A stretch of 64,000 nt of DNA from a virus, in IMG/VR virus record IMGVR_UViG_3300035180_000343, positions 62,001 through 126,000 of that record. One strand, 5' to 3'. Position 1 is the stretch's first letter. Each line of letters starts with the position of its first letter. Under the pieces are notes generated by a model. It made no database searches. It was not told the origin of the DNA and was given only the letters and a program-made list of their open reading frames with translations. A program made the translations under genes and the position numbers. Shown here piece by piece: positions 15,311 through 62,139 of this stretch.

Positions 15311-16579
15311 ATGAAACAATTACTCGCATACAAATATCGGATTTATCCAACAAAGGATCAAGAAATCCTCTTGAGCAAAACCTTTGGTTGTAAGAGAGTA
15401 ATCTTCAACCATTACCTAGAAGTGCAGCAAACCAGATACAAAAACAAAGAACCTCGGTTAAGCAATTTCGACATCAACAAAGACATCACCAAGTTAAAAG
15501 ATGAAAAGGAATGGTTGAGGGAAGTCGATATAAACGCACTACAAGCGGCGGCGGGAGATTTGTCTGTTGCATATGACAATTTCTTCAAGTCGGTTACTGG
15601 TAAGAGAAAAGGTCCGAAGATTTCTCCACCGAAGTTCAAGAACAAAAATTCTAGACAGTCGTATAGGACTCGTAATGTTCGCGTCAATGAAGACGGTTCT
15701 TTACAGATACCAAAACTAAAGTCAGTCAAAGCAGCCATCCACAGAGAAATTCCAGAAGGATCGATAATTAAATCGGCGACCATATCAAGGAACCCAGATG
15801 GAAGATATTACGCATCAATATTAGTTGAAACAGAAGTAGCATTGCAGCCAATGACAGGTAAAGAAGTCGGTTGCGATTTAGGTCTCAAGGATTTGTTAAT
15901 CACTTCAAGTGGTATAAAATTCAAAAGACCCGATGATTTACCAAACATTGCGAGAACCAAGCAATTGTTGAAGTTGAAGCAAAGACAGTTCGCAAGAACC
16001 GTTAAAGGTAGCAAAAATCACGAATCGTTAAGACTTCAAGTAGCACGACTTTATTCGAAGAGCACAAGACAAAGAAATGAATATTATCATCTAGTTAGCA
16101 GATACTTGGTTGATAATTACGATTCTATCTACGTCGAAGACTTGTCGAGTAAAAATATGTTACAGAATAGGAAGTTGAGTCGAGCGATTCATGAAGTGGC
16201 TTGGACAACTTTGTCCAATATGATTTCATATAAATCATCTTGGGCTGGTAAAACTTATCATCAAATCGATCGTTGGTATCCAAGTAGCAAGACCTGTAGC
16301 TCTTGTGGTCATAAGCTCGAGAAACTTGATCTTGGCACTAGAGAATGGACTTGTCCGTCTTGTGGAACTCATCATGATCGTGATTTAAATGCTGCTATGA
16401 ACATTCTTCATGTCGGTCAAGCCGACTGCTACGGAGAAGAAATGAAGTCGCAAGCAACAGGCGACTTGGGACTAGAGATCCCAGTGGCCCTACAGAAAAT
16501 GACCATTAAAATCGAGAGATCCAACGCTACGTTGGTTGGTCATGGGAGTGGGCAAGCTACGTCCTTTAGGGCGTGGTAG
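15311..16579 (+). CDS. tnpB: TnpB RNA-guided nuclease, copy 1
   Basis: 422 residues. An N-terminal helix-turn-helix/REC region leads to a split RuvC domain: GCDLGLKDLL (Asp), YVEDLSSKNM (Glu), and a four-Cys zinc finger CSSCGHK...CPSCG followed by DRDLNAAMNI (last Asp). All catalytic residues are present, so it should cleave DNA using an omega-RNA from the right end. The start is MKQLLAYKYRIYP. TATAAATA just upstream would give an almost leaderless mRNA. The stop codon lies inside the right-end hairpin. Confidence 0.93.
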   Translation: MKQLLAYKYRIYPTKDQEILLSKTFGCKRVIFNHYLEVQQTRYKNKEPRLSNFDINKDITKLKDEKEWLREVDINALQAAAGDLSVAYDNFFKSVTGKRKGPKISPPKFKNKNSRQSYRTRNVRVNEDGSLQIPKLKSVKAAIHREIPEGSIIKSATISRNPDGRYYASILVETEVALQPMTGKEVGCDLGLKDLLITSSGIKFKRPDDLPNIARTKQLLKLKQRQFARTVKGSKNHESLRLQVARLYSKSTRQRNEYYHLVSRYLVDNYDSIYVEDLSSKNMLQNRKLSRAIHEVAWTTLSNMISYKSSWAGKTYHQIDRWYPSSKTCSSCGHKLEKLDLGTREWTCPSCGTHHDRDLNAAMNILHVGQADCYGEEMKSQATGDLGLEIPVALQKMTIKIERSNATLVGHGSGQATSFRAW

Positions 16580-16615: not shown

Positions 16616-17443
16616 TCAATGTTTTTTCGGTTTAGCAGTTTCCATCCGCTTAAGAGTTGTTTGCCACAACTTTCTAAACTTCCCACGAACAACTCCACCT
16701 CTAGCAAACGACAAGATTTGCTTTGACGCAAACCGATTCGACGATGACGTAGATTTCGATTTATCCCAAATTTGCTTCAATGATTTATATGGCAACCCAG
16801 TTATTTTTACAAGTTTTGCTACTTCTGGATTTGTTCGTCCTTCTTCAATGAAATCTCCGTCTATCGAATCTTGAACCATCTCGTCAATTAAATCCGCAAG
16901 CGCCAATTCATTTTCTTCTAGAATTGTCCGGAGTTCTTCAAAGAGTTTCTTAGCAGATGTAGCAGTCGCCGTCGACGGACACATCGACTTAAATAACTGG
17001 AAATTATTTGTTTTGACTGCTTCTCTTGATTTGGTTGCGCTAACGTCTTCGTCTGTTCTTGGGGACTGGATGATTTCAACTTTTGTAAATCCTTTGTCAG
17101 TGGCCCACTTTTCAAGACTCTTAGCATAACCACCAGTAGCTTGATCTTCACCAACAACTATATATAATTGGGTATATCCGAGTTCTTTTAACGCTGTTAC
17201 CATTTTAAATGGATCTCGGATTTTATCGTTTTCAATGACTGTTATGTTTTTAAAGAATGTCTTGACCCATTTGACCTTGGAATTGAAATCCAATGGATTT
17301 TTCTTGTTATCTTGTGTATGCGAAAGACAAAGTATTGGATCCCCGTTGACTTTCTTTGCAGTCTCGACCGCAAGATTTACAAGTTTTTCGTGTCCGGATG
17401 TCGGGGGATTAAACCTCCCAAAGATTGCAACTGCTGTTTTCAT
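16616..17443 (-). CDS. Nucleotidylyltransferase-domain protein
   Basis: 275 residues. The first ~150 form a cytidylyltransferase/NMNAT-like Rossmann domain with FGRFNPPTSGHEKLV (HxGH-type site) and a late SATKSREAV (ISSTxxR-type) motif. The C-terminal ~120 residues are unrelated, helical and basic (RFASKQILSFARGG, KRMETAKPKKH). Likely transfers a nucleotide to a small phosphorylated substrate; NMN is one candidate. Last gene of the five-gene operon, overlapping the phosphoesterase gene by 4 bases. Confidence 0.7.
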   Translation of the reverse strand: MKTAVAIFGRFNPPTSGHEKLVNLAVETAKKVNGDPILCLSHTQDNKKNPLDFNSKVKWVKTFFKNITVIENDKIRDPFKMVTALKELGYTQLYIVVGEDQATGGYAKSLEKWATDKGFTKVEIIQSPRTDEDVSATKSREAVKTNNFQLFKSMCPSTATATSAKKLFEELRTILEENELALADLIDEMVQDSIDGDFIEEGRTNPEVAKLVKITGLPYKSLKQIWDKSKSTSSSNRFASKQILSFARGGVVRGKFRKLWQTTLKRMETAKPKKH

Positions 17444-17943
17444 TGTTCCAGTTCCGAGTAAAGAAGTCTAGGTCTAAACGAAAAACTATCGACCCCAACA
17501 TCTAAGAGTTTCCTATGTGTTTTGGTATTTGTGCCATGGCAATGACCATGCAAAAACAAATCAATTTCATCCCCAATCTTTTCAATATCTTTTGGATCGA
17601 TTGGACGATGTGACATGAAGAATGTGTTACCACCAACTTCTATTGTTGCACAATCCTGAATCTCAACCCATTCTAAATCAAGTGTTTTCTTCTTATCATG
17701 GTTCCCGATAATAAGAACCTTTTGTCCGTTCAATCTAGAAAATATTTCGGAATTCAGTTCGGTAGAAATTCCACATGAAAAATCCCCTAGATGAAACACC
17801 AGATCATCTGGTGATATCGATTCATTCCATCGTTGGATCATAGTTTCGTTCATTTCTTCCGATGTTTCGAATGGACGATTGCAGTATTTAATGATATTCC
17901 GATGCCCAAAATGTGTATCCGACGTAACCCAAATTTTACTCAT
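17440..17943 (-). CDS. Calcineurin-like metallophosphoesterase
   Basis: 167 residues. The full motif set is present: SDTHFGHRN, HLGDF, IIGNHDKK, MSHRP and HGHCHG, giving a two-metal phosphodiesterase/phosphatase site. Compact phage size. It is sandwiched between a KxDG ligase-like gene and a nucleotidylyltransferase with overlapping ends, so its substrate may be a nucleic-acid end or a nucleotide made by them. Substrate cannot be read. Confidence 0.85.
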   Translation of the reverse strand: MSKIWVTSDTHFGHRNIIKYCNRPFETSEEMNETMIQRWNESISPDDLVFHLGDFSCGISTELNSEIFSRLNGQKVLIIGNHDKKKTLDLEWVEIQDCATIEVGGNTFFMSHRPIDPKDIEKIGDEIDLFLHGHCHGTNTKTHRKLLDVGVDSFSFRPRLLYSELEQ

Positions 17944-17944
17944 C

Positions 17945-18844
17945 TCAAACCTTTCTTTTAGAGTCTTTAAACTCTTTCGTCGTTACTTTAAGAGATTTGC
18001 CATTGATCGCAAGGACAATCCCTTCAATTTCTTTTCCAAACTTATCTTTTCCGTCGATATCAGCATTTAGAATCAACGTCGCAAGGTCTTCTTTTACTTT
18101 ATTGACAATAGCAAGCAAATTCTCTTTTTGAATTTTGTCGGCTGCTTTTCTACTTTTCAAAATTTCTATATGAGAATCATCAAAATTGACTAGAGGATCA
18201 ATAGTAGCATTTATATCCAATGAGTCTATTTTCATTGAAGTATCGGCAAATTTAATTTTATCATTGCTAAACTTGAACAAATTTTTCTTTATAGACTCTT
18301 GTTGATCTTTTGGCAACTGTTCGCCAGTTGAAGCAACAACAAAATCAATTGGAAAAATAGTCATCAAACTTCCGAGTTTTGTCTTGTCATATTTTATAGT
18401 GACAAACGTAATCCCAGTGTCGTCTTCGGTTGCCATTGGGTTATAAAATATCTCACATATAAGTTTAACGTCATTTGGGATTGCTGTCAAGAAGTCTGCC
18501 GATTTAAAAATGTCAAACATATCGTCATAGTGTTGAGCACGGATAACAATTTCGTCCTTTGCTCCTTTTGCTTTTGCATGAGTCGAGAATGCTTTTGGTT
18601 CAAATATCGGACCAGTTCTTGACCCCTCAACAAACACTTTTCCGTCTTTGTTTTTTCCAATACGAAATCCTAGTCCGTCTACTTTCAATGATACCGGAAT
18701 ATCTTTTAAAACCCCACCTAATTCAGATTTAAACGATTTTACGAGGGAGATGAATTCTTCCGGTTTCATCGCTTGTAGATGTTCCATTGTAGTTCGTTTT
18801 GTCTGGACTACGTCTTCATAAATGAACTGTCGAAATGTTTTCAA
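17945..18844 (-). CDS. Ligase/nucleotidyltransferase-fold protein with virion-targeting-like N-terminus
   Basis: 299 residues. Residues ~50-62 read VSLKVDGLGFRIG, a covalent-nucleotidyltransferase motif I (KxDG). A later GKEIEGIVLAI resembles motif IV and LKVTTKEFK motif V of DNA/RNA ligases and capping enzymes. The start MKTFRQFIYEDVV resembles T4 capsid-targeting sequences (MKTYQEFIAEA) with a gp21-type IxE cleavage signal, suggesting packaging in the head. Coupled on both sides by overlaps. The ligase activity is inference. Confidence 0.6.
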   Translation of the reverse strand: MKTFRQFIYEDVVQTKRTTMEHLQAMKPEEFISLVKSFKSELGGVLKDIPVSLKVDGLGFRIGKNKDGKVFVEGSRTGPIFEPKAFSTHAKAKGAKDEIVIRAQHYDDMFDIFKSADFLTAIPNDVKLICEIFYNPMATEDDTGITFVTIKYDKTKLGSLMTIFPIDFVVASTGEQLPKDQQESIKKNLFKFSNDKIKFADTSMKIDSLDINATIDPLVNFDDSHIEILKSRKAADKIQKENLLAIVNKVKEDLATLILNADIDGKDKFGKEIEGIVLAINGKSLKVTTKEFKDSKRKV

Positions 18845-20088
18845 AGTTGAAACCCCATCTTGTCTGCGGCGCGGCCATCGAGTGACCCTCTAACCTGATA
18901 CGATTTTGACCTAAGATATACTCTTGAGGACGACATATTATTCAATAAATCTTTTCCAGTTAAAACTTCCCATTTTGGGATACCAGTTGCGCCAATGTCT
19001 AGTTTTACATAAACTAAATCGGATGACAATGCATCTGAAATAAATGGTCTAAAATCTAACCTTGGGTCGGTTTTCGAATAAGTCTCAATCAATTGTCCAA
19101 CTACTTGACTCAGCCCAATTGTTGTAATGCCCTTATTCCAAAAATCAATCTTGGATGGGTCAACTGATTCAATCCACTTCATTGCCGCATACGGAATGAG
19201 TTCATCTTTTCTCGCGTTCTTTTGAACCCACGAAGAATCAAATGTCTTGAACTCTTTGAACTTCATTTCTTTCAGATATTCCCCAGCTTTTATAGGACCA
19301 ACCCAAGCAGTATTTGACTCGATCTCCCGAATTATATTCGTCATTGGATCATTAAACCACTTCGACTTCTTATCTAACATTGAAAGAAGATCGGAACCCT
19401 TGACGGTATTTGTATGTTTTGCTGCAGTCTTTGCAGATACATTTATTACGCCAGTTGACTCAATAATATAGTCGAGCAATGGTTCGTTTGGTCTTTTTGG
19501 AAATTCAACGATTGAATATTTGTTGGCAACCTTTCCGATTGTTGCAAACATATCATTTTCAACAATTGCAATCGGTCCGAGACATTCTCCAAAGTCCTTC
19601 ATCACTGATGCGATGTCAATATTCTTTCTATGTTCTTTGAAAAAATCAACCAACGTGGAATTTGGAATTTTGCCCAATTGATGAGAAATTAACATTGAAC
19701 AATAAGACCCAGTCATTCCTAATTTTAACTCGTTTGTATTTCCTTGTAAAGTCTCGACATATTTTGGATATTTCAGGGGTTGAGTTAGACCAAACTTATC
19801 GGGTTTCAGAACATTTTGAGGAAGACGAGTTGACGTCACTTCGATTTTCATAACAATGAATTCGGTTGGGCTTATTTCGATATATCCTTTGGATGATTTC
19901 AAAATGCCGGACCCGTTTGTTTTTCTCTTCCATTTTGGGTTGTGATCTAGAAGTGTGGTGATTGCTCCCGCTCGTTGTGCATTCGGCAAGAATATATGAT
20001 AAACCGTCTTCTTAGGTCTTCCTTGTGTCAGAACAGAAATATCAGACGCACCAGTGATTTCTTTTAGCTCTTCAACAAAATCTTTCAC
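18841..20088 (-). CDS. Unknown protein of the 16.6-21.2 kb operon
   Basis: 415 residues, soluble, mixed alpha/beta. Contains GYIEISPTEFIVMKIEVTS near residue 70 and a basic C-terminus (YQVRGSLDGRAADKMGF). It starts 4 bases inside the preceding gene and ends 4 bases inside the ligase-like gene. No family recognised. The ExK-like spacing near residues 70-86 is compatible with a nuclease core, but I do not claim it. Confidence 0.6.
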   Translation of the reverse strand: MKDFVEELKEITGASDISVLTQGRPKKTVYHIFLPNAQRAGAITTLLDHNPKWKRKTNGSGILKSSKGYIEISPTEFIVMKIEVTSTRLPQNVLKPDKFGLTQPLKYPKYVETLQGNTNELKLGMTGSYCSMLISHQLGKIPNSTLVDFFKEHRKNIDIASVMKDFGECLGPIAIVENDMFATIGKVANKYSIVEFPKRPNEPLLDYIIESTGVINVSAKTAAKHTNTVKGSDLLSMLDKKSKWFNDPMTNIIREIESNTAWVGPIKAGEYLKEMKFKEFKTFDSSWVQKNARKDELIPYAAMKWIESVDPSKIDFWNKGITTIGLSQVVGQLIETYSKTDPRLDFRPFISDALSSDLVYVKLDIGATGIPKWEVLTGKDLLNNMSSSRVYLRSKSYQVRGSLDGRAADKMGFQL

Positions 20089-21194
20089 TTGTACCTCGCG
20101 TAGAAGGATTTCTTCATTTCGTCGAAGTCTTTAACGGATCCACCGAGTTTCTTAGTTAGAACGCTAATCATCGCATTCTTCTCATCGAGATCCTTGTCTG
20201 GATCTCCACGGTATAGTCCCTGTGCCGAATCTCCCCAGAGTGTATAAGCAAACCCAGTAACAATCGGCTTCCATGTGGACTTCGGAAGATTTTTTTGAAT
20301 GAGGTCGATAAGTCCCGTGAAACTACTAAATTGTTTGAGCTCGTCCGAAGATGGAGAATGTCCAAACCATTCTTTAAATACGAAATCTAGATCAGTGTTG
20401 CCAGGAGATTCTGTTGTCGACATTTCTCTATAATGTGGAATGTCGTTTGTCTTTATTTGTTTTCCAGAATCATCTTTGATTGGGGAAAGTTTGGTTCGTA
20501 GCCCACCAGTAACACTGAATGCGCGCTCACTTGAAAGGATTTCTTTATCTTTCCCTCTAGACGTCTTTGCTGGAATCAAAACCTTCTTAAGATTTGGAGC
20601 TTCCATTGCGCGCAGAAGATATTTGTGAGCAACTCCCTTAATACCTTGCTCCATATCTTCCCATGCTGAGGAATGACTAAACTGTGCCCATGGCGTCGGT
20701 TTGCCAGTTTTGTCGAATTCTACCAACTCCATATCAATCTGAATGTTGGTATCATATGGAACAAGTGTCCATAGAGTGATAAATTGTCCAGCCGATTTCT
20801 TATATCCAACGAATGTCAACGGGCCAAATGTTTCACCTTCGATACCAGAATTCAAGAATTTTTCAACAAACGGTTCAAGGTTGCCATCGACTTGAGTGTC
20901 AATATCTCCAACCGACTGTTTCACTTTAGAAAACTTTTCGTCTTCAATTTTCTTCAAGTCAAAGAAATGAAATGCAGAACCAGAAAGAAATTCTTTAGAC
21001 TTGAAAAGAGAATCGTTCCACAAATAAAGACCAGTCGACTTCGAAAATGCTTTATTGATTTCAGACAATCCCTTATCAATAACAGGGACGATTTCTTTTC
21101 TTGATAGTTTTGTCAGGTCAATTCGTTGTGCTTCGGCGTCTCCCAAACGAACATTTCCACCTTCTGAAACGAACTTTCTAAAACTTTTTAACAC
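20085..21194 (-). CDS. Candidate nucleotidyltransferase with virion-targeting-like N-terminus
   Basis: 369 residues from a GTG at 21194, chosen because GGTGG lies 8-12 nt upstream; a TTG at 21209 is the alternative. The start is LKSFRKFVSEGG, parallel to MKTFRQFIYED two genes on. SVGDIDTQVDGN around residue 95 is the D-x-D pattern of pol-beta-type nucleotidyltransferases. First gene of the operon, with a CATAAATA late-type promoter at 21229. The catalytic call rests on one motif. Confidence 0.5.
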   Translation of the reverse strand: MLKSFRKFVSEGGNVRLGDAEAQRIDLTKLSRKEIVPVIDKGLSEINKAFSKSTGLYLWNDSLFKSKEFLSGSAFHFFDLKKIEDEKFSKVKQSVGDIDTQVDGNLEPFVEKFLNSGIEGETFGPLTFVGYKKSAGQFITLWTLVPYDTNIQIDMELVEFDKTGKPTPWAQFSHSSAWEDMEQGIKGVAHKYLLRAMEAPNLKKVLIPAKTSRGKDKEILSSERAFSVTGGLRTKLSPIKDDSGKQIKTNDIPHYREMSTTESPGNTDLDFVFKEWFGHSPSSDELKQFSSFTGLIDLIQKNLPKSTWKPIVTGFAYTLWGDSAQGLYRGDPDKDLDEKNAMISVLTKKLGGSVKDFDEMKKSFYARYK

Positions 21195-21227
21195 GAGATT
21201 TCCACCCAAAGTAATTTCCTTATCGTG

Positions 21228-21980
21228 TTATTTATGGACATTTCGATACTTGACAATCATATCGATCATAACTTGTTCGTCTTGGTTTGGATTCTCACAC
21301 TTTAAATAGGAATCCATTAAATCATTTGCAAACTTGGATGTGCTTGGATCGACTTTATAAACTTCGTCAATTCCATTCAACTTCATTACGAGAAACCGTT
21401 TGACGCATTGTTTACATTCGCCACATGGGACTCCATCATTATGCCAACAACTTGTAGTTTCTTTCAGTTCTGGAATGATTTCTTTTCCGAATGTCTCGAT
21501 AGCCCATTTTACGGTGTCAACCTTTGACATCTTCTCTTCGACGAACGGAAACCTAACTTTACATCCATTGATGAATGGAGATAGCACATATGACAATACT
21601 TCCGAAGTCATTGCCCTAAACTTTTCATTCTTGTCGGTTGCTTGTTCGTTGTCCTCGTCAAACAATGTCCCCATCCATACTTCATCTGGAAGTTCTTGGC
21701 TTGCGGCCAGAGTAGCAAATACAAGATTCCTTCCAGGAATATAGATAGCAGATGCAAACGGATCAGACTTCTTGGACACGGGACGAATACCAGCTGGAGA
21801 TAACCAATCAATAGTTCGAATCTCAACATATTCTGGAAGTCGGTCAATCTCAACCTCTTCGGAATCTGCTCCATGTGCATAGTAAATACACTTTACATCC
21901 GCATCTGGATAATTCTTCTCGGCATATTTCTTCATCAGGAAACTGTCCAACCCACCACTATACAAAATCACAATCTTCAT
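21228..21980 (-). CDS. queC: 7-cyano-7-deazaguanine (preQ0) synthase
   Basis: 250 residues. The N-type ATP pyrophosphatase P-loop is SGGLDS at residues 8-13. YIPGRNLVFAT and the zinc cluster CWHNDGVPCGECKQCVKR are diagnostic of QueC. Converts CDG to preQ0 with ATP and ammonia. It is a stand-alone QueC, not a Gat-QueC fusion. Lies 19 bp behind the HAD gene and ends against the late promoter of the next operon. Confidence 0.92.
   Translation of the reverse strand: MKIVILYSGGLDSFLMKKYAEKNYPDADVKCIYYAHGADSEEVEIDRLPEYVEIRTIDWLSPAGIRPVSKKSDPFASAIYIPGRNLVFATLAASQELPDEVWMGTLFDEDNEQATDKNEKFRAMTSEVLSYVLSPFINGCKVRFPFVEEKMSKVDTVKWAIETFGKEIIPELKETTSCWHNDGVPCGECKQCVKRFLVMKLNGIDEVYKVDPSTSKFANDLMDSYLKCENPNQDEQVMIDMIVKYRNVHK
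21229..21236 (-). promoter_or_regulatory. Late-type promoter of the five-gene operon
   Basis: CATAAATA on the minus strand inside the end of queC, about 35 nt before the GTG at 21194. Confidence 0.4.
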
Positions 21981-42958: not shown

Positions 42959-42987
42959 AAAAGAAAGGGATGTCGTTTGACATCCCC
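42959..42987 (-). terminator. Intrinsic terminator of the tmRNA
   Basis: Minus strand GGGATGTC-AAAC-GACATCCC followed by TTTCTTTTC. Confidence 0.9.
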
Positions 42988-42989
42988 GA

Positions 42990-43315
42990 ATATTTGATCC
43001 AGCCACTTCTGTTGCCAAGCAGGCTGGTCGCTCCGAGTCTTAAATCAGTCTGCAATTAAGCAGCCAGACGAACCTCATATGTTGCGTCGTTAGACGCTTC
43101 CACGTTTGCATTTACTTCATTTGCTTCTTCAACTATCACGGCTTCTGCGTTGCCGATTCTCCAGTTATCTTAATCATCGCCAATCGATTCCAATTCAGCC
43201 CCATCGGAAATACAGACAATTGCGTCTATACTTCTGATGAGGTTGGTGGAGCTGGAGAGACTCGAACTCTCTTCTTGTTCGACTTTCGATAACCTTCACC
43301 GAATTCTTTAAATCA
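42990..43315 (-). ncRNA. ssrA: Circularly permuted (two-piece) tmRNA
   Basis: Minus strand, 5' to 3'. An acceptor piece ends with T-arm GAGAG-TTCGAGT-CTCTC and CAGCTCC-A-CCA (CCA at 43244-43246). Then a 41-nt spacer (43203-43243). Then a coding piece starts GGGGCTGAATTGGAATCGAT at 43202. GGGGCTG pairs with CAGCTCC, including the G3-U70 wobble read by alanyl-tRNA synthetase. GATAAC in the coding piece pairs with GTTATC in the acceptor piece (P2). A pseudoknot-like CGGC/GCCG precedes the tag. The tag frame ends TYEVRLAA-stop (TAA at about 43061). A terminator follows. The 5' limit is approximate. Confidence 0.85.
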
Positions 43316-43385
43316 ATTTGGGCCAAAATACATCAGAGGATTTGGCGAAAAACGTTTTAATTGACAACCACGTACCAAAAACATA

Positions 43386-51062: not shown

Positions 51063-52165
51063 TGAGAATTCTTTTTAAAGTTCGAGTAAACATTACGAAG
51101 AGAATATTTATTTAGCATATACTTTTCAAAAAACTTCTTGAAATCTGGATCTTTTCCTTCGATTTCCTTTATGGCCAATCCAAAATACGGATGACAACGG
51201 TGGAGCAATGCAAACTCTTTTCTTTCTAACTGTTTCCCAATATTCGCCAATTCTTTCGTCGATTCGATAATTTGATCAAAATCTTTAGTCACTTGATGTT
51301 CAATATCCAAGATCGGATCGAGTGACAATCCCTCTTCAACGATAGTAGATTTCAAATCATCTAAAGTTTCGTCGAGAATCAATTTAACAACATCCCGACC
51401 ACGCAATTCAGTCCTAAGTCTGTGATGAAGAAGATACCATTCGGTCTTTATCTTAACGCGTTCTTGAGTGCTCTTATTGAAGAGAACGTAGCCCTCAAAG
51501 TTTATTTTAAGTTTGACATCGAGAAAGATCTCGTCTAGGGTCTTGTTCCATACTGGAATTGAATCAATCCCCAATTGTTTAGCATAAAATATTGGATCAT
51601 GATACCATCCATCGTTATTTTCTCGAACAGCCAGTAAAACTAAACGAGGTTCTTGTCCATAGTCCAATACAATTCTGCTATCGGGAGAAGTGAATTCAAA
51701 AATCGAAGTCAGGCTATCGTTTGCGATGGATTTGACTGCTTCGTAAAACCGACCGTTTGTTGTATTATTGTATTCATCTGCAAATTTTTGACAATTCACT
51801 GCGACGTCTGAGTAAAATGACTTCTTCGTTTTCCAGAACACTTTATCATTAACGACAACTGGAGAAACCATTGAGCCGTCACGTTTCTCCAGAACGATGA
51901 CGTCGTTCCAATTCCAGTTTCGAACAACACCGATCTGAGTTTCCGGCCGCTCTCCCATGTTAAAAAACTTCTCGAATGGCCGACAAACAACATTTCCAGT
52001 GGAGTCAAACGTGATGCCACGACATTCTTTTGCCAAAGGAATTTCCCAAAGATCATTAGTGGAAATCATATATGAGCAGATAGTCAATTGCTCACCATTA
52101 ACTTCCTCTTCTTTAAACTTAATCATGGGTTCATTTTGTAAACCCTTGAAATCACTGATATTCAT
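51059..52165 (-). CDS. rnlA: T4 RNA ligase 1-like
   Basis: 368 residues (T4 Rnl1 374). Motif I EKRDGSMVSP (lysine nucleophile near residue 93), motif III-like SIFEFTSPDSRIVLDY, motif IV NFEGYVLF, motif V VKIKTEWYL; helical C-terminus as in Rnl1. Seals tRNA breaks made by anticodon nucleases such as PrrC, together with the PNK at 54017-54952. Promoter copy 8 at 52197. Confidence 0.92.
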   Translation of the reverse strand: MNISDFKGLQNEPMIKFKEEEVNGEQLTICSYMISTNDLWEIPLAKECRGITFDSTGNVVCRPFEKFFNMGERPETQIGVVRNWNWNDVIVLEKRDGSMVSPVVVNDKVFWKTKKSFYSDVAVNCQKFADEYNNTTNGRFYEAVKSIANDSLTSIFEFTSPDSRIVLDYGQEPRLVLLAVRENNDGWYHDPIFYAKQLGIDSIPVWNKTLDEIFLDVKLKINFEGYVLFNKSTQERVKIKTEWYLLHHRLRTELRGRDVVKLILDETLDDLKSTIVEEGLSLDPILDIEHQVTKDFDQIIESTKELANIGKQLERKEFALLHRCHPYFGLAIKEIEGKDPDFKKFFEKYMLNKYSLRNVYSNFKKNSQ

Positions 52166-60635: not shown

Positions 60636-60804
60636 GTGCAGTGTCTCCTGTCTTTTCTTTCTGCTTGGTCTTCTTGAACTCCAGGTAGTGTTTTTCGGCA
60701 GAAATAATCGATTTTTTAAAAATGTTTCGAGCTGCTTTGTCCTTGATCCCGTTTAGCAGGTTCTTTACTTCATGTGACATTTTAAAATGTTGATCTAGTG
60801 ACAT
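60628..60804 (-). CDS. Small basic hypothetical protein, 58 aa
   Basis: ATG 60804, TAA 60628. MSLDQHFKMSHEVKNLLNGI, then KKSIISAEKHYLEFKKTKQK; helical, basic. Lies between 45 and dUTPase, where T4 has rpbA on the other side of 45. Homology not shown. Confidence 0.6.
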   Translation of the reverse strand: MSLDQHFKMSHEVKNLLNGIKDKAARNIFKKSIISAEKHYLEFKKTKQKEKTGDTAHV

Positions 60805-61515: not shown

Positions 61516-62139
61516 TTAATTACTTTCGTCTTGGTTGTCAAGCGATTCTTCATCCAATTGTTGTGGAGGATAAGGAATTCTTGGAAGCCAATCGAAATCT
61601 GTTACTATTCTGTCTGCAAGTTTAAACTTTATCATTTCTTCTGCCGTCATCCAAAAATCAGATGGGCCAAAGAAAGTTTTGCTAATTTGTCGATGAGTTA
61701 AATTGCTATATTTTTCGATCAACCTGAACATTCGATTCCTAACATTTTTAGTCTCCGAATTGTAAGCCAAGATCTCATGTTCTTTAACAGAATCACCAAA
61801 ACTCATCGAAAATTGGTGGCACAAAATCGAAACATTTTCAGTTAAAAGCCGTTCATGTGCTGCAATAAAAATCATGAATGCCGAACTATAAACTTCCCCG
61901 ATTCCAATTGCAGTGATTGGAATGGAACTCATTCTAATTGCGTCGATTAGTTTAAATGCATAAGCAACATCGCCCCCTCCAGAAGTAATAATCAAGTAAA
62001 TTCTATCAAGTCTTTGGGCAGCATTCTCGAACATGATTGAGTTGACGATCGGAATAACTGTTTCCTCGGAAATCATTCCATCTAGTGTATAAACACCAAG
62101 CGTTTCTAAAACCTTTTTGTCCTCATCTTGTTCACACAT
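61516..62139 (-). CDS. ClpP-like serine protease
   Basis: 207 residues, ClpP/crotonase fold. YLIITSGGGDVAYAFKLIDAI (oxyanion Gly turn), VYSSAFMIFIAA (Ser), LLTENVSILCHQFSM (His). Acidic C-tail. Inserted between genes 45 and 46, where T4 has rpbA. Phage ClpP homologues are usually head-maturation proteases, but here the context is replication, so the target is unclear. Confidence 0.8.
   Translation of the reverse strand: MCEQDEDKKVLETLGVYTLDGMISEETVIPIVNSIMFENAAQRLDRIYLIITSGGGDVAYAFKLIDAIRMSSIPITAIGIGEVYSSAFMIFIAAHERLLTENVSILCHQFSMSFGDSVKEHEILAYNSETKNVRNRMFRLIEKYSNLTHRQISKTFFGPSDFWMTAEEMIKFKLADRIVTDFDWLPRIPYPPQQLDEESLDNQDESN

Follow-up and report, generated by a model that had tools for sequence, protein, structure and literature searches.

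A phage operon built around three nucleotidyltransferase-type enzymes, two of them with predicted capsid-targeting leaders

Why should a phage keep several nucleotide-transferring enzymes together, and does it carry them in its head into the next host? These questions are raised by five joined open reading frames (ORFs) at 16616-21194, all on the minus strand, in IMG/VR virus record IMGVR_UViG_3300035180_000343. Positions are those of the window, the 64,000-nucleotide stretch analyzed (positions 62,001 to 126,000 of the record, which has 129,321 bases and belongs to a virus of bacteria). As transcribed, the operon encodes proteins of 369, 415, 299, 167, and 275 amino acids (aa), joined successively by a GTGA overlap, a TTGA overlap, a 1-bp gap, and an ATGA overlap, as a first-pass annotation of the sequence had described. 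The conserved unit within it consists of three nucleotidyltransferase-type enzymes, not five. The operon is interpreted here, with confidence just short of an even chance, as a nucleic acid end-repair set that is at least partly packaged in the virion and acts at entry, on RNA more probably than on DNA.

Three enzymes in one conserved unit

The first gene (20085-21194, GTG start at 21194; 374 aa in the ORF listing, counted from a TTG) encodes a 369-aa protein whose motifs and modeled fold identify it as a Pol-beta-type nucleotidyltransferase; its GS/DxD/D core is complete, with GS, GDID, and QID all present. It matches phrog_19290 (E 8.5e-31), a PHROG family of unknown function, and no Pfam family at E up to 1. 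A search with a five-sequence alignment led to 58 IMG/VR loci (cited by L numbers), and conservation was read from the window protein and 36 of 37 nonredundant relatives, from GGN onward, one truncated row being left out. Numbered from GGN, residues G1 G2 N3, G61 S62, G85 D86 x D88, and Q141 x D143 x E145 are invariant in 37/37 sequences, which all have the G[GS], DxD, and third Asp of the Pol-beta superfamily. The rows were cut at [EMC]GGN, making the invariance of GGN a matter of choice, yet no hidden Markov model (HMM) match lacked such a GGN.

The structure model of the transferase (predicted local distance difference test [pLDDT] 95.5, predicted template modeling score [pTM] 0.90) is consistent with a Pol-beta palm fold. 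The best Foldseek match in the PDB was Pol beta (E 5.3e-3, probability 0.99, template modeling [TM] score 0.26), with unrelated folds mixed in. All 50 top rows from VIA were Pol-beta superfamily members, the best being Pol mu 6aeh (Z 8.0 over 174 residues, 3.7 Å), although Z scores of 8.0 and below would be weak taken alone. Five viral proteins in BFVD match the model at E <= 0.001, every one unnamed or uncharacterized, and a PDB sequence profile of the family returned nothing meaningful. The D-x-D nucleotidyltransferase of the first-pass annotation is thus borne out by both the conserved core and the model. Patterns from the five sequences, compared with 84,980 bacterial and archaeal species, gave 1 relative among 97 candidate stretches; it is probably a phage, since the first ORF of its 8-kb contig resembles the end of the gp41 helicase.

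The third product (299 aa; 17945-18844, TTG start) is, on conserved motifs and modeled structure, an RNA-ligase-fold adenylyltransferase, with sealing activity predicted. The KVDG lysine, from which a ligase-like protein had first been proposed, is K54 of motif I (K54xDG). K54, D56, and E131 (motif III) are kept in 23/23 family members and G57 in 22/23 (Leu in L030), and E274-G275 (motif IV) and K286 (motif V) are kept in 22/22 members covering that region, one row being truncated; motifs I, III, IV, and V of the covalent nucleotidyltransferase/RNA ligase superfamily are all present. The model (pLDDT 94.0; 53 over the first ten residues, which form the leader discussed below) has the adenylyltransferase fold of RNA ligases and matches these enzymes first. 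Foldseek gave T4 Rnl2 (E 4.3e-5, probability 1.00, TM score 0.37) and also TbREL1, the Naegleria enzyme, and T4 Rnl1, and VIA gave Naegleria RNA ligase (Z 10.6, 199 residues, 4.1 Å) and other RNA ligases (Z 9.5 to 8.1), with DNA ligases at Z 8.5 or less. The OB-fold domain of ATP-dependent DNA ligases is absent, because the protein ends 13 residues past K286. No Pfam family is matched at E up to 1, hence neither Rnl1 (PF09511) nor the NAD-ligase domain; a PDB sequence profile of the family gave nothing meaningful, and a single-protein scan of viral contigs with the 299-aa query found no relative. Structure prediction, the check that had been proposed for the 369- and 299-aa proteins, gives nucleotidyltransferase-type folds for both.

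The last gene (16616-17443) encodes a 275-aa protein that, by motif and profile, is a (T/H)xGH enzyme like NMNAT and PPAT, in line with the HxGH nucleotidylyltransferase suggested at first. It matches PF01467 (CTP_transf_like; E 5e-6), phrog_3041, and phrog_395, and its family has G17 H18, S135, and R140 invariant in 14/14 sequences, giving both the (T/H)xGH and the SxxxxR-type motif. The profile of these 14 relatives matches archaeal NMNAT (MJ0541, E 6.2e-7) and PPAT (E 8.6e-7) about equally and so favors neither substrate class.

HMM searches found all three families in 51 of the 58 loci. Of the remaining seven, L002, L033, and L067 are cut off by a contig end, and L060 to L062 are Campylobacter phages with a ligase-(T/H)xGH fusion located elsewhere; L048 is a real exception, its transferase having neither partner in 17 kb. 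Fusions join the transferase, ligase-type, and (T/H)xGH domains in 15 loci, the ligase-type and (T/H)xGH domains in 15 (in reverse order in L058), and the transferase and ligase-type domains in 2; the genes are unfused in 26. For the 41 loci distinct by their last 150 residues, the corresponding counts are 10, 11, 1, and 19. Xanthomonas phage X1 and Stenotrophomonas phage YB07 keep the gene order transferase, slot protein, ligase-type protein, (T/H)xGH enzyme, and in both the cluster is flanked by gp41 and a baseplate-hub gene. No description of the three-enzyme unit was found in the open-licence literature, judged by titles and abstract starts. A 1605-aa protein of L035 joins the three nucleotidyltransferases to LysM and phage-lysozyme domains; the proteins of L036, L051, and L054 have the same length (only L035 was scanned).

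The phosphoesterase and the 415-aa slot come and go; the five genes of the first-pass annotation are joined in this phage, but the unit conserved across relatives is the three enzymes. The calcineurin-like phosphoesterase that it had named is the 167-aa product (17440-17943), which matches PF12850 (Metallophos_2; E 8.5e-11) and phrog_547 and is, with the 275-aa enzyme, one of only two operon proteins with a Pfam match. Its relatives lie within about 3 kb of the transferase in four other loci (L063, L064, L068, and L069), on the opposite strand in one. The 415-aa protein (18841-20088, GTG start) matches nothing in Pfam or PHROG at E up to 1 and has no useful PDB sequence match, and a single-protein scan of viral contigs found no relative; among phage records, relatives occur only in AG-345-F15, S-SZBM1, and S-WAM1. 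E168, D206, and S218xK220 are kept in 4/4 members, Ser replacing the usual ExK Glu, and at the motif level the protein looks PD-(D/E)xK-like and may be nuclease-like. In other phages this slot, or its vicinity in the cluster, is occupied by different proteins, and by eye several of them show a D...[SE]xK pattern resembling this one. The L024 protein just upstream of the transferase has a canonical D..EIK, and its PDB sequence profile gave nothing meaningful. The slot protein of YB07 is covered by phrog_12709 together with a ligase-type domain.

Predicted capsid-targeting leaders and virion proteins

T4 internal proteins and Alt carry a short N-terminal leader that ends in Glu and is cut by a gp21-type protease. 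Such leaders are well supported, at the level of sequence, on two operon proteins: MLKSFRKFVSE on the transferase (21162-21194, minus strand), where a predicted cut after Glu would leave an N-terminal GGN, and MKTFRQFIYE on the 299-aa protein (18815-18844, minus strand). The leader ending in [LIV]xE is shared with the T4 proteins; different here are the nucleotidyltransferase cargo and the position of the leader directly before an invariant GGN. The record encodes a T4-type prohead protease (gp21; PF03420, E 2.4e-43), which itself starts MILIESQFVTE|A, and the gp23 major capsid protein (PF07068, E 7.4e-123). The phosphoesterase and the 275-aa enzyme of this phage have no leader; the N terminus of the 415-aa protein (MKDFVEELKE) is, by eye, a possible third and weaker one.

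A strict leader motif, written after examples had been seen, occurs in the ORFs of the record at 8 of 788 start codons within the first 20 codons and at 3 of 2719 later ones (Fisher p 5e-4); across the loci, the background is 3 in 5382 internal Met. The eight starts belong to the two operon proteins, three phrog_12810-type paralogs, a zeta-toxin/PNK-type kinase, and two small proteins. The two T4-like leaders proposed at first therefore exceed chance, and in relatives the cut would fall exactly before an invariant GGN. Of the 58 loci, 44 have Glu directly before the transferase GGN, 10 have Met, and 3 (L028, L029, and L031) have Cys; in the remaining one, L002, the script picked an upstream GGN, and the real leader ends in Glu. 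All 33 distinct Glu-type transferases read [LIV]xE|GGN, with L, I, and V third before the cut in 21, 9, and 3, respectively, and these sequences are kin rather than 33 independent cases. With Glu or the start Met directly before GGN, the mature N terminus would be identical whether it arose through the protease or through loss of Met, and an invariant GGN after either suggests a proteolysis-dependent enzyme.

On the ligase-type protein, leaders that fit the strict motif are found in the window and in 10 of the 58 loci, and looser ones elsewhere (e.g., L016, L022, and L025). Strict-motif leaders also occur on the proteins just upstream of the transferase in L024, L030, and L033; in L041, L049, and L053 neither the ligase-type protein nor the transferase has a leader. 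A scaffold-only role of the leaders was given little weight because they sit on enzymes with intact motifs.

Virion proteins of cyanophages provide a second line of evidence. Ten cyanophage stretches (not whole genomes) encode DUF6267 (PF19782) in 9, the (T/H)xGH family in 9, both in 8, and the transferase in none; where both occur they are adjacent or, in the case of S-PM2, share a single frame, and the S-SSM7 and AG-345-F15 stretches have DUF6267 alone and the (T/H)xGH enzyme alone, respectively. KxDG, the EG of motif IV, and the K of motif V are invariant in 7/7 DUF6267 proteins. The link to the 299-aa family stays at the motif level, because hhalign (probability 23; 5.5 with one sequence) spans only the motif I region; there is no HMM cross-match, and a PDB sequence profile of DUF6267 gave nothing meaningful. 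DUF6267 and the (T/H)xGH domain are covered together by phrog_455. The 275-aa enzyme is matched in 530 phage records and DUF6267 in 465, mostly cyanophages, with names such as hypothetical protein or cytidyltransferase; no paper on DUF6267 was found in the open-licence literature.

The transferase of CP220 is taken to be CPT_0100 from gene order, with the numbering assumed; a figure legend names 11 CP220 gel bands, and CPT_0100 is not among them. Table 1 of the S-SZBM1 report lists 30 virion proteins, including the (T/H)xGH enzyme (2 peptides) and its downstream 457-aa neighbor. This (T/H)xGH enzyme of S-SZBM1 starts with a leader, MRFRQFIIE, and the DUF6267 protein, which was not detected, lacks one, in agreement, for this one phage, with a leader predicting packaging. 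The 457-aa neighbor (L070:9359-10732) has a longer N terminus with VTE at 25-27 before Gly28, perhaps a longer leader. Published mass spectrometry also found the (T/H)xGH enzyme in S-CREM2 virions (3 peptides, with a warning from the authors of possible carry-over) and in S-SCSM1 virions, and the cyanophage authors call it NMNAT-like.

A further reading concerns the fusions. All 11 distinct transferase-ligase fusions have [LIV]xE 5 to 9 residues before the KR.GI anchor of the ligase domain (background 1.2% per position); these fusions are related to one another, the site is at 8 or 9 in 10 of them, and the anchor of L035 is doubtful. By eye, the leader cut in the ligase-type protein of the window would also fall 8 residues before the anchor. 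It is conceivable, though we consider it doubtful, that the three nucleotidyltransferases of unrelated folds form one genome-delivered unit, which a head protease would release while making the active GGN end of the polymerase-fold member; some would be made as a polyprotein with an LxE site, and in leader-free phages Met removal would serve. A T4-type head had been expected for the polyprotein-type phages. Searches for protease, capsid, and portal matches did not bear it out, and the fusion-bearing phages may therefore not be T4 type: 10 of 18 records searched (nine fusion-bearing ones and L018, all possibly fragments) matched neither PF03420 nor, over the cutoff, PF07068, the nine had no T4 portal match, and the ten had no match to PF04586 or PF07230, one of these searches being without any positive-control match.

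Proposed end repair at entry and its alternatives

In the proposed sequence of events, the Pol-beta-type transferase and the RNA-ligase-type protein would be made late in infection as precursors with T4-style leaders, enter the prohead core, and be cut after Glu by the gp21-type protease. The mature enzymes, the transferase starting Gly-Gly-Asn, would stay in the head and travel with the DNA into the next host, where the transferase may add nucleotides to broken 3' ends and the ligase-type enzyme would adenylylate itself and seal 5'-phosphate ends. The (T/H)xGH enzyme may supply, recycle, or itself make the adenylylated intermediate, the phosphoesterase could clear blocked phosphates, and the PD-(D/E)xK-like protein could trim. 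Since the nearest folds are those of RNA ligases, the substrate is more likely to be RNA, for example tRNA cut by host defense nucleases. For this phage, packaging, injection, the division of labor, and the substrate are what we infer from these comparisons.

Several observations weigh against end repair at entry. No protein of the length of DUF6267 (397 aa) or of the 415-like slot protein (445 aa) is among the 30 in the S-SZBM1 list. In L017 and L037 the transferase bears a leader but the ligase-type protein does not, and X1, YB07, Va1, and L041 have none on the unit proteins; packaging is therefore not essential. TM scores are low (0.27 to 0.43 for PDB matches of the 299-aa model, 0.26 for the best match of the 369-aa model), and in Foldseek no PDB match of the transferase model reaches E 0.001. 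The phage already encodes Rnl1: the gene noted in the first pass, at 51434-52027 (minus strand), has the single PF09511 match of the record (E 1.8e-25). Finally, the cargo may be effectors, given the PARP-like domain of a 1319-aa protein of this record whose leader is of the looser kind.

Effectors are the alternative that survives best, and we judge it unlikely. The injected transferase and ligase-fold enzyme would take control of the host, or inactivate it, by attaching nucleotides to its tRNA or proteins, in the manner of other leader-bearing cargo of this phage. The same record encodes, besides the PARP-like protein, a leader-bearing zeta-toxin-like kinase, and a paper on polyvalent proteins groups Pol-beta transferases with protein-modifying injected domains (PMC5512222). 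However, a ligase-fold partner with sealing motifs and a phosphoesterase suit end repair better, and fixed linkage to ligase-type and (T/H)xGH enzymes would be unusual for single-hit effectors.

Repair of DNA rather than RNA at entry, with a polymerase X-like gap filler and a ligase mending nicks and gaps in the packaged phage DNA, appears rather improbable. The longest matches of the transferase model are DNA polymerases mu, lambda, and beta and AsfvPolX, over model residues 5-282, and the module lies near the gp41 primase-helicase in several phages. Terminal uridylyltransferases, however, score within 1 Z of the DNA polymerases in VIA, so the transferase fold does not decide, and the ligase domain resembles RNA ligases more closely and lacks an OB domain with which duplex DNA could be clamped. 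Least probable is a cofactor module in which the (T/H)xGH enzyme would synthesize, upon entry, NAD+ or an adenylylated molecule related to it for the others to use or rework, e.g., against NAD-depleting defenses: the nearly equal profile matches to NMNAT and PPAT and the name NMNAT-like given to the virion enzyme speak for it, but that enzyme is leaderless in this phage, a role for the Pol-beta transferase in NAD synthesis is hard to see, and the ligase-type protein matches no Pfam family, hence no NAD-ligase domain.

Genomic surroundings, related systems, and implications

A possible T4-type late promoter box, CATAAATA, lies at 21229-21236 (minus strand), within the last codons of the QueC gene upstream of the transferase. 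The box reported in the first pass is present, but its frequency is not above chance (5 YATAAATA in the window versus 5.8 in shuffles), making it weak evidence for late transcription. The gene of the leader-bearing kinase has the same late-type box 37 bases ahead of it (record position 60781). This gene (record C1:60010-60768) encodes a P-loop kinase (Zeta_toxin, E 2.5e-12; PNK PHROG, E 3.5e-10) that matches a later part of phrog_12810, and L068 encodes, after the transferase, a kinase whose N terminus resembles a leader. Three tandem paralogs of ~260 aa with leaders MKTF[KI]Q[YF]IQE lie at record C1:57529-60028, 4.5 to 2 kb before the window; two of them were scanned, and both match phrog_12810 over its first third; the WRGE motif may point to ADP-ribosyltransferases. 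The 1319-aa protein (record C1:61284-65258; up to 3258 in the window, minus strand) has its PARP-like domain at the C terminus (PF00644, E 5.9e-4, 19.8 bits, below the Pfam cutoff of 26.7).

A TnpB/OrfB_IS605-like gene (15311-16579, plus strand) converges on the 3' end of the operon. Similar start regions follow 23821 and 30926 (plus strand; only the gene at 15311-16579 was profiled), and TATAAATA lies directly 5' of all three starts. ARAGORN predicted a tmRNA gene, unusual for a phage, at 42965-43337 (minus strand), with tag EEANEVNANVEASNDATYEVRLAA; its star we take to mean permuted.

Bacterial Pnkp pairs a ligase-type adenylyltransferase with a calcineurin-like phosphoesterase. This pairing is shared by the operon and T4 Rnl1/bacterial Pnkp-Hen1 RNA repair; unlike in Pnkp-Hen1, no operon gene matches the Pnkp kinase or Hen1 family, and the Rnl1 match is a separate gene in the record. 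In phage RNA repair by the RlaP Pol-beta transferase with ATP-grasp RNA ligases (PMC7824862), as here, a transferase lies beside an RNA ligase and phosphoesterases in large phages, whereas the invariant N-terminal GGN, the (T/H)xGH partner, the three-way fusions, and the capsid leaders set the present unit apart; for the transferase itself, the contrast with RlaP is the empty Pfam search, with no head-to-head comparison behind it. Polyvalent proteins (Iyer 2017, PMC5512222) are multidomain and proposed to be injected, some with Pol-beta transferases; the three-enzyme combination is not named in the part of that paper available, and here the genes are separate, as in 26 of the 58 loci. The cyanophage virion proteins called NMNAT-like or cytidylyltransferase share the (T/H)xGH family, with DUF6267 as a neighbor that has ligase-type motifs, and differ in the transferase, absent from the stretches read, and in the leaderless DUF6267 of S-SZBM1.

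If the end-repair set is indeed delivered by the virion, it would explain the recurring so-called cytidyltransferase in cyanophage particles, and DUF6267 would gain a testable function. Phages would then repair damage ahead of any phage gene expression, and this phage may deliver, upon infection, a ready-made kit for mending or changing broken nucleic acid ends.

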